Virus record (IMG/VR): IMGVR_UViG_3300048772_000237
Location: 1 to 28,385 of that record
DNA length: 28,385 bases
Direction: 5' to 3' (one strand)
Origin: a virus
Position numbers and translations under genes: made by a program. Shown here one piece after another: positions 12,227 to 28,150 of this stretch (the first letter of the stretch is position 1; the number at the start of each line of letters is the position of its first letter). Under the pieces are notes generated by a model. It was not told the DNA's origin. It worked only from the letters and a program-made list of their open reading frames with translations, and did not search any database.

Positions 12227-12270
12227 AAAAAAATGCCCTCACGGAGTACGGAGACTGTGCCGTGAGGGCA
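12227..12270 (-). terminator. Intrinsic terminator at the convergent junction, strongest for leftward transcripts
   Basis: An 11-bp perfect stem, TGCCCTCACGG (12234-12244) with CCGTGAGGGCA (12260-12270), closes a 15-base loop. Seven A residues at 12227-12233 become a U-tract directly after the hairpin in leftward RNA. In the rightward direction the hairpin is followed only by CTTAATT, so it would be a weaker stop. It separates the end of the late operon (12204) from the end of the early operon (12287). Confidence 0.88.
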
Positions 12271-12284
12271 CTTAATTAACCTCA

Positions 12285-12450
12285 AATTACCGCGACCTCG
12301 ACCCCGAGGTCAACCTCGATCTAGACCACGCCTTCGACCACAACTCCGACCTCGAACTAGGCCCCGACCTCGACCTAGACCACGACCGCAATCTCGAACT
12401 AGACCTCGACCACAACCTCGATCTAGACCACGACCACGACCACAACCGCG
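12285..12450. repeat. TCG-NGG hexamer array A
   Basis: On the + strand the stretch is built from CGACCT, CGACCA, CGACCC and CGAACTAG-like units with a 6-base rhythm; on the - strand it reads TCG alternating with AGG, TGG, GGG or AAG. It is the body of the microgene at 12287-12487. Its first 55 bases (12285-12339) are identical to 13169-13223 in array C. Confidence 0.85.
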
Positions 12451-12487
12451 CCTGATCGAAGCCGACTCTAGCTACCGTCGCGTTCAT
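12287..12487 (-). CDS. Ser-[Arg/Trp] dipeptide-repeat microprotein A (66 aa)
   Basis: Starts MNATVARVGFDQARLW and then alternates Ser with Arg, Trp, Leu or Gly to a SGSRSR ending. The ATG at 12487 overlaps the stop of the 110-residue gene as ATGA, and AGGAG lies upstream inside that gene. Two paralogues (12860-13144 and 13171-13401) share the MNAT start and the SRSR end, which argues that this frame is selected rather than a random open frame in a repeat. Composition is extreme: about a third Ser, with Arg and Trp making up much of the rest, hence very basic and disordered with regularly spaced aromatics. Nucleic-acid binding or phase-separating behaviour is conceivable; no function is known to me. 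Confidence 0.6.
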   Translation of the reverse strand: MNATVARVGFDQARLWSWSWSRSRLWSRSSSRLRSWSRSRSGPSSRSELWSKAWSRSRLTSGSRSR

Positions 12488-12816
12488 TTCTGGCTCCTCG
12501 GCAATCCTTTGATCTGCACGGCATCAATCAGTGATCCACGTCCGACGATGACTCGGCCTTCGGGGAATGGTTCGACTTCGTTGAAGTCGAGTGAGATCAG
12601 CGCATCAGCAAAACGACCCGTGTCGGCAATCCACGCCGCATCTTCGATCACAAGCTCTTGGGGTGTAATCGCTACAAGGCGCCCAGTGTCGATCATAGTG
12701 ACAGTACGAATGAGATAGTTCTTGCCGATTTCCCATGCACTGTCATCCTTTGTTTTTGATGAGAACGTCGCGGCCAACTGTTTTGCTCTTTCAGCAGCTA
12801 ATTTATCGATTTTCAT
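12484..12816 (-). CDS. Conserved-looking small phage protein (110 aa), unknown
   Basis: ATG 12816 follows AAGGAG with 7-base spacing. The protein starts with a Lys/Ala-rich helix (MKIDKLAAERAKQLAATF), then a compact beta-rich fold: WEIGKNYLIRTVTMIDTGRLVAITPQEL, AAWIADTGRFADAL and EVEPFPEGRVIVGRGSLIDAV. No Cys and no signal are seen. Codon use and composition are ordinary, in sharp contrast to the repeat genes on both sides. Its stop overlaps the start of repeat microgene A (ATGA), so the two are translationally coupled. I recognise the pattern as one recurring in environmental phage sequences (memory, not checked), but no function is attached. Confidence 0.78.
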   Translation of the reverse strand: MKIDKLAAERAKQLAATFSSKTKDDSAWEIGKNYLIRTVTMIDTGRLVAITPQELVIEDAAWIADTGRFADALISLDFNEVEPFPEGRVIVGRGSLIDAVQIKGLPRSQK

Positions 12817-12857
12817 TGTGTTCTCCTTTTCAAATGTTCACATCTTCACTCAGATTT

Positions 12858-13110
12858 AATTACCTCGACCTCGAGGTCGACCTCGAACTAGACCACGACC
12901 TCGACCTAGACCACGACCACAATCTCGAACTAGAGGCCGACCACGACCTCGAACTAGGCCCCGAGGCCGACCACGACCTCGAACTAGACCACGACCTCGA
13001 ACTAGACCCCGACCTCGACCTAGACCACGACCACAATCTCGAACTAGACCCCGACCACGACCTCGAACTAGGCCCCGACCTTGACCACGACTTCGACCAC
13101 AACCCCGACC
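12858..13110. repeat. TCG-NGG hexamer array B
   Basis: The longest of the three arrays (about 250 bases) with the same CGACCT/CGACCA/CGAACTAG vocabulary. The 60 bases at 13051-13110 are identical to 13308-13367 in array C. On the - strand G-pairs recur nearly every six bases. Confidence 0.85.
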
Positions 13111-13144
13111 CTCTAAGGCCGGTCCCTAAAAGTGTCGCGTTCAT
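12860..13144 (-). CDS. Ser-[Arg/Trp] dipeptide-repeat microprotein B (94 aa)
   Basis: ATG 13144 is preceded by a strong GGAGGAG site. The product reads MNATLLGTGLRGSGLWSKSW and then about 75 residues of S-R-S-W, S-G-S-S-S-R and S-A-S units, ending STSRSR. It is the longest paralogue. Start, SD and stop context are conserved with microgenes A and C, while the repeat interior varies in length and order, the usual sign of slippage or recombination in a tolerated low-complexity body. The + strand of the same region is also open (Asp/Leu/His alternation) but has no ribosome site of its own. Function unknown. Confidence 0.62.
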   Translation of the reverse strand: MNATLLGTGLRGSGLWSKSWSRSGPSSRSWSGSSSRLWSWSRSRSGSSSRSWSSSRSWSASGPSSRSWSASSSRLWSWSRSRSWSSSRSTSRSR

Positions 13145-13168
13145 TTCTCCTCCGTTTCGCCCAGGCTC

Positions 13169-13367
13169 AATTACCGCGACCTCGACCCCGAGGTCAACCT
13201 CGATCTAGACCACGCCTTCGACCCCGAGGCCGACCACAAGGCCGACCACGACCTCGACCACGACCTCGACTCCGACCTCGACCGAGACCTCGACCACGAC
13301 CACGAGGCCGACCACGACCTCGAACTAGGCCCCGACCTTGACCACGACTTCGACCACAACCCCGACC
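13169..13367. repeat. TCG-NGG hexamer array C
   Basis: Same hexamer rhythm as arrays A and B. Its stop-proximal 55 bases match array A exactly (13169-13223 with 12285-12339) and its start-proximal 60 bases match array B exactly (13308-13367 with 13051-13110), so it is a mosaic of the two. Confidence 0.85.
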
Positions 13368-13401
13368 TATCAAAGCCAGCTCTTAGAAGCGTCGCATTCA
13401 T
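13171..13401 (-). CDS. Ser-[Arg/Trp] dipeptide-repeat microprotein C (76 aa)
   Basis: Start chosen at ATG 13401, which overlaps the stop of the 67-residue gene (ATGA) and follows GGAGGAG. An open frame continues upstream but only through that neighbour. The product opens MNATLLRAGFDRSGLWSKSW, shares the next 20 residues with B, and ends SRSRLTSGSRSR as A does. The middle holds a run of SRSRSESRSWSRSW. The shared frame among three copies, each with a good ribosome site, is the main evidence for coding. It is the first of the three to be transcribed. Function unknown. Confidence 0.62.
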   Translation of the reverse strand: MNATLLRAGFDRSGLWSKSWSRSGPSSRSWSASWSWSRSRSRSESRSWSRSWSALWSASGSKAWSRSRLTSGSRSR

Positions 13402-13601
13402 TTCTCCTCCGTTGAAGGCAGCTGCCTCACCCATCTGACCTGGGTGTTCTTGTACATCGCCACACAGTGAGCGCCGTTGGGCATCTTGTTCGAGAACACA
13501 ATGTTGTCTCCGAGCAGGGTGCATTCTTGTGCGGTGATGCGGTTGGACTTCTGAGTCTCGTCGAAGAGACGGACTTCATACTGAATCGGACTATTTGTCA
13601 T
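13398..13601 (-). CDS. Small protein (67 aa), unknown
   Basis: ATG 13601 with AAAGGA and 8-base spacing. A compact, ordinary-composition protein: MTNSPIQYEVRLFDETQKSN, TAQECTLLGDNIVFSNKM, AHCVAMYKNTQVRWVRQLPS. The alternating hydrophobic pattern suggests a small all-beta fold, perhaps five strands. Two Cys are present without a metal-site pattern. It is coupled by ATGA to repeat microgene C, just as the 110-residue gene is coupled to repeat microgene A, so the locus shows a small-folded-protein plus repeat-protein pairing twice. No family recognised. Confidence 0.65.
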   Translation of the reverse strand: MTNSPIQYEVRLFDETQKSNRITAQECTLLGDNIVFSNKMPNGAHCVAMYKNTQVRWVRQLPSTEEK

Positions 13602-13665: not shown

Positions 13666-13683
13666 AAAACGATGAGTCGTTTT
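13666..13683 (-). terminator. Weak hairpin after the GroES-like gene
   Basis: AAAACGA (13666-13672), TGAG loop, TCGTTTT (13677-13683) form a 7-bp palindrome overlapping the GroES-like stop codon. In leftward RNA it ends in UUUU, but the stem has only three G-C-type positions (C-G, G-C) and there is no longer U-run. It may be a partial terminator or an mRNA 3' end protector. An A/T-rich stretch (13605-13640) follows before the next gene. Confidence 0.3.
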
Positions 13684-14087
13684 CATTCTGCATTCATCAA
13701 ACTGTAATCCTCCATCTCAAACTTCATCTCCTCGTTGGTCAGGACCTCTCCCACCAACTCCTCGTAGGAGAATACATCGAGCTTTGGCCTGTCCTGAACA
13801 TAGACAGGTATCCCGCTCATGCGAGTGAACAGAACTCGTTTGCCTAAGAGGCACTTATGATCGTCATCCCCCACAGCTCTGACATGCCCAATGGTTGGGA
13901 GCTGGCGAGTTGTTTTGGGCAGAATCAGAGCGCCTGTGTACTTGAACTCCTCACGCTCCACCACGCAGCGTCCAGAGAATGGCTTGATAAAGCAGACGCT
14001 CCTTCGGTGCTCTGCCCCAGAGTCCTCTTGAAGTATGTCTTGATCTTGGTATGCCGCCGGCAGCTTGTTTGTCTCAGATGATTCCAT
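13683..14087 (-). CDS. GroES-like co-chaperonin fold protein
   Basis: A 134-residue protein. After a polar 30-residue lead, residues about 33-118 follow the Cpn10 plan: VERE-EFKYTGALILPKTTRQLPTIGHV, RAVGDDDHKCLLGKRVLFTR, then PKLDVFSYEELVGEVL. That is the beta-barrel order G-i-i-iP-t, p-G-V-aVG, G-rVlf, y-x-dIlG. In GroES a mobile loop docks to GroEL; here the corresponding segment (GALILPKTTRQL) is short. Viral GroES analogues such as T4 gp31 assist capsid folding by the host GroEL. It overlaps the helicase gene by 14 bases and has GGAGGA upstream. The fold call is reasonable; an actual chaperonin role is inference. Confidence 0.6.
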   Translation of the reverse strand: MESSETNKLPAAYQDQDILQEDSGAEHRRSVCFIKPFSGRCVVEREEFKYTGALILPKTTRQLPTIGHVRAVGDDDHKCLLGKRVLFTRMSGIPVYVQDRPKLDVFSYEELVGEVLTNEEMKFEMEDYSLMNAE

Positions 14088-18222: not shown

Positions 18223-19326
18223 TTATTTCCCCACAAGATCATGAGCTTGATGTAAATCCATTTGTTCGCCGCAATACTCAAAGACGGCACAACGTGAGCC
18301 TCCAAACCCTCTCACTGTGCTCGTCTGCCATAGCCTCGGTGAGAACGTCCCACTCCCCTTGGCCTGCTTCCAATCCGGACTCTTCTGATAGGAGCGGATC
18401 CAGGTGGGATGATTCGGATAGCTACGAAGACGGAACCCAAGCGCACTGTAGGCAGAGCCTACGATACTTGCGAGACGAAGGGCGATGCCCATGCCTTGCC
18501 AGTCGGGGAGGCACACCATTCGTGTGAACCCCATGATGTTGGTTACTTTGGGATGCGGACGGTAGAGTATCCCACACATCGCAGCGATACGATTCCCGAC
18601 GAAGAGGCCAAAACATCTTGCAGCTCGATTCAGCTCCACACTCATATAATGGTAGGGTGCGAATAGCTTCCAGCTCGCATATTGGATCCGAGTAACCTCG
18701 CAGTCCAATTTTGGGCGTCCTCGAAGTAACCTCCAGAAGAACGAGGATGAGGCAGGCTCGAAGACCCAATCTGGTTCGAGCCAGTCGATGATGTCGTAGT
18801 GACAGGAGGCACAGACCATCTTACGGGAGTTTGCACGGGCGTATTTGGCCACAGCGAAGGCACCGATCTTCGCGACCTGTCGATCCACAACTGAGGTGAA
18901 TTCGTCGATGGTGACGACGGGACGCTGATCTTCTAACATGCGTCGGGCAAGCTCGCACCTGAATTGCTCTCCGTTGGACAACGTGCTGAACGGCCGCATC
19001 CACGCAGGGATGGTGTTGAACCCCACGCTCTTGAAGGCGTTGACAATCTCGGAGATGCTTAGGTCTTGAGAGATGGCATCGACAACAGGGAGACTGGGCC
19101 AACTCATGGAGAGCGGCGCTCCGAAGAGCTTGTTCAACGAGAGGGTTTTGCCACTTCCGCTCGGGCCAACAATCAGCCCGATGTTCCATTCCTTTGATTC
19201 GATGGGAAGATCAGCGTTCAGGTGGACTGAGAGCTTTTCGGTGGTTGGAACTTCAAATAGACTTTCGAGCTGTTGCACTCGAATGGTGTGTTCAATCTCG
19301 GTCGTAAGTTCAAGTTCAAGTTTCAC
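18223..19326 (-). CDS. ABC-type ATPase fused to GNAT (Mom-like) acyltransferase domain
   Basis: GTG start at 19326 with AAGGAG spaced by 6. Residues 45-200 form a soluble ABC ATPase: Walker A GPSGSGKT (54-61), signature LSNGEQ (116-121), Walker B VVTIDE (137-142) and H-loop His176 in ASCHYD. No transmembrane partner is visible. Residues about 205-345 are a GNAT fold: YHYMSVELNRAARCFGLFVGNRIAAM, the acyl-CoA motif with RMVCLPDWQGMGIALRL (269-285), and a closing SYPNHPTWIRSYQKSPDW. Phage Mu Mom, which modifies adenine in DNA, is also of GNAT type, and ABC-GNAT fusions beside ParB occur in other phages (recalled, not checked). DNA-base modification or protection is therefore the best guess. The gene is between ParB and the DUF1937 gene with gaps of 9 and 3 bases. 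Confidence 0.78.
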   Translation of the reverse strand: MKLELELTTEIEHTIRVQQLESLFEVPTTEKLSVHLNADLPIESKEWNIGLIVGPSGSGKTLSLNKLFGAPLSMSWPSLPVVDAISQDLSISEIVNAFKSVGFNTIPAWMRPFSTLSNGEQFRCELARRMLEDQRPVVTIDEFTSVVDRQVAKIGAFAVAKYARANSRKMVCASCHYDIIDWLEPDWVFEPASSSFFWRLLRGRPKLDCEVTRIQYASWKLFAPYHYMSVELNRAARCFGLFVGNRIAAMCGILYRPHPKVTNIMGFTRMVCLPDWQGMGIALRLASIVGSAYSALGFRLRSYPNHPTWIRSYQKSPDWKQAKGSGTFSPRLWQTSTVRGFGGSRCAVFEYCGEQMDLHQAHDLVGK

Positions 19327-19335
19327 ACGGGCTCC

Positions 19336-20127
19336 TTACACAATAACGGCTTGGGTTTTGTAATTGCGCTTCTGGAACTCTTGCAGAAGCGCGATCTGGT
19401 CCTTCTCGTCCTTGCAGAAGATAAGGACGCGGTAGTCAAGGGCCTTCTGCGCAGCCATTTTAGCGTCATCCTGTGTAATGATCTTGCTTCTGATGGCTGC
19501 GGCCACAACCACCGCAAGACTCTGCGCCTGAGCTGCTGTTTTGGACTGATGGTTCTTAAGCTGAGGCGCGATTTTTACCATCTCTGCAAGACGAAGGTCT
19601 TGTGAGACTGTGGATGGGGCCTCACCGAGCATTGCAGCAAGTCGGCGGACGCCAAACCCCTTGATCTCCCCTGTGCGGCGCTCCTCTCGTGTCAGCCCAC
19701 CTTGAGTCACATGGCCATGAATCTTAGTCATGATTTCGAGGAGCTTTGCCTTGGCAGCAATGACCTCAGGCCAGTCCATCTGCTTGCGTTTGAGATTCTC
19801 TTCGAGTTCGATTGCACTCAAGCGTAGCTTGCCTTCATCTGTGGTGAAGGTCTCCTCACGAAGGAGCCAATCCCTACCATGCAGCAGCTCTTTCCACTTG
19901 AGGAACTTGATTGCTTTGAGGCGACGACCTCCAGCAACTAGGCGAAACACAGGGGCTTTGCCCTCGACACTTTGTTCCTGAGCAAGAATGATTGGCTGAA
20001 TGAGCCCGTACTCCTTGATCGAGGCGACAAGCTCATTGATGTCACCGTAGTCCTTACGAAAGCGGTCTCCAGCCTCGATGTCGTCAGGGGATATTGTTTG
20101 AGGTATTACAAGCTGCTCATGGGTCAT
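19336..20127 (-). CDS. ParB-like DNA-binding protein/nuclease
   Basis: A 263-residue ParB/Srx-domain protein. Residues 10-110 are the ParB N-terminal domain: DDIEAGDRFRKDYGDINELV, SIKEYGLIQPIIL, then the phosphate-binding FRLVAGGRRLKAIKFL box and ELEENLKRKQMDW. Residues about 150-180 hold a helix-turn-helix (GVRRLAAMLGEAPSTVSQDL). The C-terminus is helical. In chromosomal ParB the GGRR/GERR box binds CTP; phage relatives may act as nucleases, partition proteins or partners of base-modifying enzymes. No ParA gene is visible in the window. It overlaps the lipoprotein gene (ATGA) and is followed 9 bases later by the ABC-GNAT gene. Confidence 0.88.
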   Translation of the reverse strand: MTHEQLVIPQTISPDDIEAGDRFRKDYGDINELVASIKEYGLIQPIILAQEQSVEGKAPVFRLVAGGRRLKAIKFLKWKELLHGRDWLLREETFTTDEGKLRLSAIELEENLKRKQMDWPEVIAAKAKLLEIMTKIHGHVTQGGLTREERRTGEIKGFGVRRLAAMLGEAPSTVSQDLRLAEMVKIAPQLKNHQSKTAAQAQSLAVVVAAAIRSKIITQDDAKMAAQKALDYRVLIFCKDEKDQIALLQEFQKRNYKTQAVIV

Positions 20128-26911: not shown

Positions 26912-28150
26912 TCACTGGAGTTGTCTGTTCTGCGGCGCAGTCACTGGCTGCGTCTCATGGAACTTCGCCATCATCACCGCGGCCTGCACATCCTCCTGCG
27001 TAGCAAGCCCGCTGTGAAGACGGAGAAGTCCCCCTTGGAAGTTCGGTGTTTTGTAGAGCATATCGCCTCGCTCCATGAGATACTGTGCCCCGCCCTCGTC
27101 GAGAACAACACGAGAGTCTATCTCTGTGGGCATCCTAAAGCTGAGGCGCGCAAGGAAGTTGGACTTGATATCCCCAGCCACAACCGCGATGCTTGGGCGC
27201 TGTGTCGCAGCGATGACGTGGATGCCAGCAGCTCGCGCCTTGCGAGAGAGATAGTCCACCTTCTCAATCCCCAAGGTCACTTTCTTGCCCTTGGCATCCT
27301 TGAGACTCACTATATCTGCAAGCTCATCAATCACGAGGACAATGTAGGGGAGAGAGTCGTAGCCTCGCGAGGGCGCCTGGGCGTTGTACTCTTGGATGTT
27401 CTTAGCGCCACACTTTGAGAGGACCTGAAGTCGTTGGTCTGTCTCTTCGCATAGGTTCTCCAAATACTCGATGGTGCGCAAGGGGTTGGTGGCTCTCTCC
27501 CACATGAGATGTGGGCAACCGACAAAATCGGTAAACTCGACTGCTTTTGTGTCGCTGAGTACCAGCTTGACCTCGCTTGCGCGCCTGCTGTACAGGAGCC
27601 CCGCACACATGCTTCGAAGGAGAACTGATTTGCCGCCCCCGGTGGAGCCTGCGATGAGGAGATGTGGGAGTGTTGTGAGATCGTCAATGTAGACCTTGCC
27701 GAGCCAGTCAGTCCCCAAGTACAGAGGGATGTGCTGCTTCGTGGCATGGCCTTCTCCTTCGGAGAGGTCGGAGAGGTCTGCGACACGGGCGTTGCTGGGG
27801 GAACCCACGAGATTTCTCCACAGAACTGTGGTTTGCTCCTTGTTGGGCACATAAATTCCCATCACACCCTCCCCCGCAAGAGGCTTGACTACGATGTGAG
27901 GCGTGCAGAGGGCAAGGGCCAAGTCTGGGGCTAGTGCCTCCACTGCAATGGTCTTGGTGCGTCCCTGCGGAGCGAGCCTGTAGAGTGTGACTCTATTCCC
28001 ATGGGTCACCGTTGATATAGGACGAACGTCGAGTCCGAGGGCAAGGGCCCTCGTCAGAATCACCCCCAGAGTGCTCTGCTGTTGAGGGGACAGGGCTTCG
28101 CCCTTGGGCGACATGGGCGTTGCTGGAGAAGTCGAACTTTTGGGTTCCAT
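26912..28150 (-). CDS. Soluble FtsK/SpoIIIE-type DNA translocase
   Basis: A 412-residue protein with the FtsK motor. Residues 30-130 form an alpha-beta lead (VILTRALALGLDVRPISTV). PLYLGTDWLGKVYIDDLTTLPHLLIAG leads to Walker A GSTGGGKS (168-175); VKLVLSDTKAVEFTDFVGCPHL and Walker B YIVLVIDELAD (269-279) follow. ARAAGIHVIAATQRP and FLARLSFRMPTEIDSRVVLDEGGAQYLMERGDML are typical FtsK segments. The four-helix membrane domain is missing, and no gamma winged helix is clear. Known chromosomal enzymes pump dsDNA as hexamers. In a phage, possible jobs are segregation, packaging help or plasmid-like spread. Start ATG 28150 has AAGGA at 11 bases but overlaps the upstream frame by 158 bases; it might start later. 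Confidence 0.9.
   Translation of the reverse strand: MEPKSSTSPATPMSPKGEALSPQQQSTLGVILTRALALGLDVRPISTVTHGNRVTLYRLAPQGRTKTIAVEALAPDLALALCTPHIVVKPLAGEGVMGIYVPNKEQTTVLWRNLVGSPSNARVADLSDLSEGEGHATKQHIPLYLGTDWLGKVYIDDLTTLPHLLIAGSTGGGKSVLLRSMCAGLLYSRRASEVKLVLSDTKAVEFTDFVGCPHLMWERATNPLRTIEYLENLCEETDQRLQVLSKCGAKNIQEYNAQAPSRGYDSLPYIVLVIDELADIVSLKDAKGKKVTLGIEKVDYLSRKARAAGIHVIAATQRPSIAVVAGDIKSNFLARLSFRMPTEIDSRVVLDEGGAQYLMERGDMLYKTPNFQGGLLRLHSGLATQEDVQAAVMMAKFHETQPVTAPQNRQLQ

Follow-up and report, generated by a model that had tools for sequence, protein, structure and literature searches.

A cluster of Ser-X microgenes beside an acidic protein gene

The window analyzed here, the whole 28,385-nt stretch of an IMG/VR virus record (IMGVR_UViG_3300048772_000237, positions 1 to 28,385), carries on its minus strand three microgenes whose products alternate Ser with a second residue (Ser-X), together with a gene for a 110-aa acidic protein, hereafter the partner. 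The microgenes were read from the sequence and its open reading frames, the ribosome-binding sites from the sequence, and the locus comprises:

12231..12273, no strand assigned: terminator-like inverted repeat and T-run, past copy 1
12287..12487, minus strand: Ser-X microgene copy 1, 66 aa, MNATVARVGFDQARLWSWSW...GSRSR
12484..12816, minus strand: gene of the 110-aa acidic partner (predicted fold: Sm/LSm), immediately upstream of copy 1
12494..12499, minus strand: ribosome-binding site of copy 1, GAGGAG
12860..13144, minus strand: Ser-X microgene copy 2, 94 aa, MNATLLGTGLRGSGLWSKSW...STSRSR
13147..13153, minus strand: ribosome-binding site of copy 2, GGAGGAG
13171..13401, minus strand: Ser-X microgene copy 3, 76 aa, MNATLLRAGFDRSGLWSKSW...GSRSR
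13398..13601, minus strand: 67-aa ORF without a family match, its stop overlapping the copy 3 start (ATGA)
13404..13410, minus strand: ribosome-binding site of copy 3, GGAGGAG

As the preliminary description of this DNA had it, each of the three minus-strand frames has a ribosome site, an MNAT start and an SRSR end. The sites are purine-rich and are spaced as GAGGAG-N6-ATG in copy 1 and as GGAGGAG-AA-ATG in copies 2 and 3, and the C-terminal ends read LTSGSRSR in copies 1 and 3 and STSRSR in copy 2. For copy 3 the list of open reading frames holds a longer frame from an ATG at 13524, the MNAT start being at 13401. The three copies are real, but the tandem first described is interrupted by the partner gene (12484-12816), which separates copy 1 from copy 2 and whose stop overlaps the start of copy 1 by ATGA. 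The inverted repeat at 12231-12273 is probably the end of the minus-strand operon.

The interior codons of the copies are TCG (with some TCT and TTG) alternating with NGG, plus some AAG, GCC, AGT and GAG. The Ser alternation seen at the outset stands, but the words are not Ser-Arg and Ser-Trp only: they are Ser-[Arg, Trp or Gly], in near-equal use across the family. The products are basic, as had been proposed, and that of copy 2 is predicted to be disordered: its AlphaFold model (single sequence) has a pLDDT of 47 and contains no secondary structure, which fits disorder.

Genomic context and hosts

The window neighbors of the pair are a GroES-like protein, a helicase/primase-like protein and a DNA polymerase. 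The GroES/Cpn10-like protein (13683-14087, minus strand; Pfam Cpn10, E 8e-7) adjoins the microgenes. Elsewhere the window encodes a protein combining an ABC-ATPase-like part with a weak GNAT-like one (18223-19326, minus strand; phrog_11143, E 6e-93), a ParB-like protein (19336-20127) and an FtsK/SpoIIIE-like ATPase (26912-28150, minus strand). PADLOC found no match among the proteins of the window.

Across the family, the neighbors of the pair are diverse (80 proteins scanned in 22 loci). The most frequent named families were exonuclease, DNA helicase, terminase, Sak4-like and Gp2.5-like annealing proteins, DnaB-like helicase and DNA polymerases, each accounting for two to four of the 80 proteins. 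Metagenome-assembled genome (MAG) contigs with the partner are labeled with mixed phyla, including Phycisphaeraceae, Isosphaeraceae, Dehalococcoidales, Bathyarchaeota, Bacteroidetes and others; when the phylum of the Isosphaeraceae MAG was searched, one of 294 genomes was positive.

The partner and the Ser-X gene are linked across environmental phages

Relatives of the 110-aa protein numbered 129 in viral_contigs by single-sequence search and 311 by alignment search, and nine in genome_contigs, all of them MAGs. Among 50,697 phage records the pair is present in one, MW202573, itself an environmental genome, a count for which the named-phage peptide search may have been masked by low-complexity filtering. 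In 87 of the 89 loci examined, a Ser-X ORF starts no more than about 110 nt downstream of the partner, mostly overlapping or abutting its stop, a linkage far beyond chance; MAG relatives at 44-65% identity are also among the loci with such an ORF. The gene pair occurs in independent samples, in a GenBank record and in MAGs.

The reciprocal scan, for array DNA (TCGNGG x8), detected the partner by HMM in 65 of 119 loci among the matches listed, in every case on the strand of the array and within 1.5 kb of it. Among the same matches, 17 of 51 interior arrays had no partner detected at HMM E < 1e-3. In some loci a microgene lies ahead of the partner, the same as in the window, and microgenes commonly occur in tandem, with about eight copies in L078, six in L088, four in L086 and three in L018. 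Arrays range from 4 to about 40 Ser-Trp, Ser-Arg or Ser-Gly dipeptides across the family.

Several loci depart from this layout. In L225, L236, L237, L239 and L246 the array microgenes have different N-termini (SKQKYR-like in several) and lie beside partners that are only distantly similar (about 27-33% identity); these five probably represent a second subfamily. At L240:5947-6720 a Ser-X array continues in frame and stop-free into a domain that bears a weak resemblance to the Sm-like partner (32% over 44 residues; hhalign P 0.0017); this may be a natural fusion or else a gene with an internal GTG start, and no clear case of an array/Sm-like-domain fusion was found. Another tandem repeat, GWLGYR-like in one frame, is present at L044:3300-3620 in a phage that also has a Ser-X gene. 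Ten contigs (L019, L021, L024, L028, L032, L033, L040, L052, L084 and L089) stop inside the Ser-X array; since metagenomic contigs often end there, the gene is a frequent cause of broken assemblies.

The peptide, rather than the DNA, is kept by selection

The idea that one selected peptide is being kept is borne out by four kinds of evidence: switching of the Ser codon, the frame and position of the stop, purifying selection on the N-terminus, and a control with cellular microsatellites. In the related contigs, start, frame and stop are kept while the repeats vary, and stops or frameshifts are few among the 89 partner loci. The exceptions are a TGA within the array (L074), a stop together with a second copy in another frame (L048), ATA in place of ATG (L049), and a short array with only a few Ser-X words (L020).

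The Ser codon itself differs between phages (TCG, TCA, TCT or AGC), with one codon accounting for 97.8% of the serines per array. On the weakly resolved partner tree, the AGC/TCN label requires at least eight changes and the four-way codon label 19. When distinct abcNGG runs were collected irrespective of phase, abc was a Ser codon in 223 of 225, a count that holds partly by construction because some loci were fetched by the TCGNGG pattern; the loci fetched via the partner protein are free of this selection. In 175 of 197 hexamer runs, the Ser-X frame is the first to reach a stop downstream, at a median distance of 3 codons from the run versus 34-37 in the other frames. Tandem paralogues have differing start frames, yet the frame set by each start is Ser-X. 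The alternative (RG)n frame is limited to TCG arrays and is destroyed in AGC, TCA and TCT arrays.

The N-terminus, MNAAILRTGFD, is under purifying selection, with a pN of 0.27 and a pS of 0.80 over codons 2-11 (pN/pS 0.34). Its Gly is invariant and uses all four Gly codons; the invariance is partly by choice, because the N-terminal pattern used for picking rows required this Gly, and the codon variety is not. That the peptide and not the DNA is what selection keeps is thus well supported.

Array composition is fixed while word order is nearly free

Among 1,851 X residues, 624 were Arg, 581 Gly and 558 Trp (35%, 33% and 32% of these three, respectively), the remainder being Leu, Lys, Gln, Ala, Val, Glu and Met. 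The spread of composition between arrays barely exceeds multinomial sampling (chi-square 248, 212 d.f.). Word order is near-random, with GG and RR neighbors mildly depleted and repeats at longer lags slightly overrepresented. Selection keeps the Ser-X frame and a near-equal Trp/Arg/Gly composition, with the order of the words nearly random.

Codon use within arrays is largely homogeneous. Arg is encoded only by CGG in 72 arrays, only by AGG in 23 and by both in 8, and Gly by GGG in 550 of 581 cases, while the N-terminus uses all Gly codons; 1,781 of the 1,851 X codons end in G. Such arrays may have arisen by concerted evolution from a founder hexamer, which would necessarily have carried TGG (Trp), with subsequent selection for Gly and Arg words.

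Bacterial genomes served as a control: TCGNGG x8 occurs in 20 of 379 genomes of one phylum. Among the bacterial matches listed, arrays consist of one or two words each, and the only genome with all three words has its matches on a partner-bearing contig. All three words appear within the first eight in 189 of 226 viral runs versus none of seven runs from six bacterial loci. Neutral slippage of a hexanucleotide microsatellite was rejected on the near-equal three-word composition, the fixed frame and stop, and this control.

The order of the array turns over faster than the flanking DNA, via in-frame block changes. Different arrays occur despite 83-98% identical flanks in the pairs L027/L029, L023/L029, L041/L048 and L059/L064. 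The nearest relatives of the window, L011 and L012, are 98.6% identical to each other and carry the window's copy 1 unchanged; compared with them, window copies 2 and 3 carry in-frame block replacements with length differences of 6 or 12 bases, and block changes are shared between copies, as by gene conversion. An RVT_1 reverse transcriptase was found in one of 47 records, some of which are fragments, and a diversity-generating retroelement (DGR) target was rejected on that basis.

The partner is predicted to have an Sm-like fold

An AlphaFold model of the partner built from 36 sequences reached a mean pLDDT of 90.5 and a pTM of 0.73. A Foldseek search of the PDB placed Sm/LSm chains on top (best E 1.5e-3, probability 1.0), and in VIA-align the best 50 PDB matches were all Sm/LSm chains or complexes (Z 8.9-10.2), including archaeal SmAP 1i8f (Z 10.2, rmsd 1.6 over 64 residues, 25% identity). 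The best viral fold match was a DUF6948 phage protein (BFVD A0A6J5MA76; E 1.6e-4, TM 0.64). A near-invariant GRG[SA] motif (R93, G94) precedes the last strand at an Sm2-like position, in an alignment that is not significant by sequence, and by eye the Sm1 Asn is replaced by Glu.

At the sequence level, no LSM (PF01423) match was found by Pfam in 36 partner members, the window protein matched nothing in Pfam, NCBIfam, PHROGs or PDB sequences, and its relatives gave chance-level family matches only. An hhalign comparison with 20 archaeal LSm proteins scored 15.6, with shuffled columns reaching up to 18.5. Because this profile comparison is not significant, the Sm relation rests on predicted structure: an Sm-like fold is predicted, and membership in the LSm family is unsupported by sequence. 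The partner is acidic (median pI 4.9, charge about -4), and the Ser-X peptides are strongly basic (pI 12, charge about +8.5).

A possible ribonucleoprotein module and its alternatives

We tentatively propose, as a reading with slightly less than an even chance of being right, that the two genes form a ribonucleoprotein module in which a basic sticker-and-spacer peptide and an acidic Sm-like protein act on RNA or ssDNA. Gene one would supply the acidic protein with the predicted Sm/LSm fold; gene two, usually start-stop overlapped behind it and often in tandem, would supply the basic low-complexity peptide, laid out as a conserved MNAAILRTGFD-like N-terminus followed by a Ser-Trp/Ser-Arg/Ser-Gly array. 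Arg and Trp would be the stickers and Ser and Gly the spacers of a multivalent polymer, which may bind nucleic acid, the acidic Sm-like protein or both, so that the pair might build a ribonucleoprotein assembly or condensate. Its likeliest task would be the handling of phage RNA, as by Hfq, or of ssDNA during replication and recombination. That the peptide might condense RNA or DNA, conceived of from the first, becomes somewhat more plausible given the predicted Sm/LSm fold of the partner, the opposite charges (pI 12 vs 4.9) and the replication and recombination neighbors; the composition would also suit a membrane-active or promiscuous protein-binding role.

The rapid turnover of the arrays could itself be what is selected, with a polyspecific tail blocking or decoying a fast-changing host factor and the tandem copies serving as variants. 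Word orders that differ wholly between phages with 83-98% identical flanks (L027/L029, L041/L048, L059/L064), the multi-copy clusters in L078, L088 and L086, and the block changes among the nearest relatives of the window would all be expected of such a variable-recognition peptide. However, the same three words recur in the same proportions everywhere, so a composition requirement fits better than specific variants, and both the shortage of linked reverse transcriptases (one of 47 records) and the conserved partner with its Sm-like fold argue against this explanation, which we regard as unlikely. A membrane-active or host-toxic cationic peptide, held by the acidic protein as chaperone or antidote, would also agree with the Arg/Trp-rich composition, the opposite charges and the translational coupling of the two genes. 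This reading is quite improbable: the peptide has no signal or hydrophobic segment, the neighbors that could be named included replication and recombination genes and no lysis genes, PADLOC matched none of the proteins of the window, and an Sm fold would be unusual for an antidote.

The nucleic acid, rather than the peptide, might matter through GG every six bases (a G-quadruplex), ribosome drop-off at NGG codons, or a site of recombination or packaging. NGG codons near the beginning of genes reportedly provoke peptidyl-tRNA drop-off (PMC12204400), RGG motifs encoded by G-quadruplex-forming RNA are known (PMC11789052), and third-base G is nearly universal in the X codons (1,781 of 1,851). The latter is accounted for by Trp having only TGG, together with array homogenization. 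A role of this kind is most improbable given that the Ser codon family switches while the peptide is kept, that the stop lies in the Ser-X frame and that the N-terminus is under purifying selection; moreover, arrays with CAG, CTG, GCG, CGC or GGT (L017, L018, L056, L057) keep Ser-X and break the GG spacing, and the predicted G4 gain is inconsistent across arrays. G-quadruplexes and NGG-codon drop-off were each rejected as inconsistent across arrays. A neutral microsatellite or an assembly artefact has next to no probability: TCGNGG microsatellites do exist in bacteria and many contigs end within the array, but the bacterial arrays among the matches listed have one or two words and the viral ones three, and start, frame, stop and partner are conserved across independent samples, a GenBank record and MAGs.

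A broader form of the ribonucleoprotein reading, to which we give even chances, is that the arrays represent a viral gene class defined by composition: a three-word, near-random copolymer that fast in-frame recombination rewrites while each word stays at about one third, and that would form, together with the Sm-like protein, a phage-made ribonucleoprotein system or condensate widespread among uncultured environmental phages. If the composition-only reading is true, this would be a new viral gene class common in such phages. The arrays are apparently a natural example of a disordered peptide whose composition and alternation are fixed by selection and whose order is left nearly free, and, because the example is seen across dozens of phages, the sticker-and-spacer idea becomes testable with natural replicates. 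Phages would also gain a family of predicted Sm-fold proteins with a dedicated low-complexity partner, a hint of phage-built RNA or ssDNA assemblies. Hundreds of environmental phages carry this recognizable, undescribed gene pair, which is nearly absent among named phages and breaks assemblies.

Comparison with known systems

The window peptides gave only sub-threshold compositional family matches in Pfam, NCBIfam and PHROGs, and a sequence comparison with the PDB returned two chance-level matches. In the open-access literature we found no paper on repeats of this kind, on the WSRS motif, on hexanucleotide phage genes or on DUF6948. Neither protein is covered by a described family in the libraries searched, and we rate the pair as new as a kind of gene, a novelty that would be weaker if the partner turned out to be a standard Hfq-like ring whose tail is encoded separately.

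The main weak matches were Ser-Asp repeat families of MSCRAMM adhesins (E 0.001 to 0.04, far below cut-offs). Like SdrC and ClfA, the phage proteins have alternating Ser-X dipeptides of variable length; unlike them, they lack Asp in the repeats, whereas Ser-Asp repeats belong to a large surface protein with a signal peptide and LPXTG. Membership was rejected, with scores of 12-17 against cut-offs of about 1000-2500 for relatives, window proteins of 66-94 aa, and matches that are compositional.

The predicted N-terminal helix and bent strand barrel of the partner resemble the Sm/LSm/Hfq superfamily (SmAP1 1i8f; environmental Sm-like 3by7); unlike its members, the partner is acidic, has no significant sequence or profile match and usually adjoins a separate low-complexity microgene. 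DUF6948 phage proteins are the best viral match to its fold, although the partner lacks a Pfam sequence match.

The RG tails of SmB/D1/D3 join an Sm-fold protein to a repetitive or charged disordered segment. The phage (RG)n frame, by comparison, is confined to TCG arrays and not kept. A disordered C-terminal tail is likewise described for Hfq (PMC5606850). The phage pair shares with these Sm/LSm tails the combination of an Sm-fold protein and a low-complexity segment, but in the phages this segment usually has a gene of its own, often in several copies, and is basic and Trp-rich, with alternating Ser and a hypervariable order. Eukaryotic SR/RGG domains combine Ser, Arg and Gly with aromatic residues in condensate-forming RNA-binding tails, and the phage peptide has a similar Ser/Arg/Gly plus aromatic composition; it differs from them in its strict Ser alternation, in Trp making up as much as one sixth of the array residues, and in being encoded by a free-standing phage microgene.
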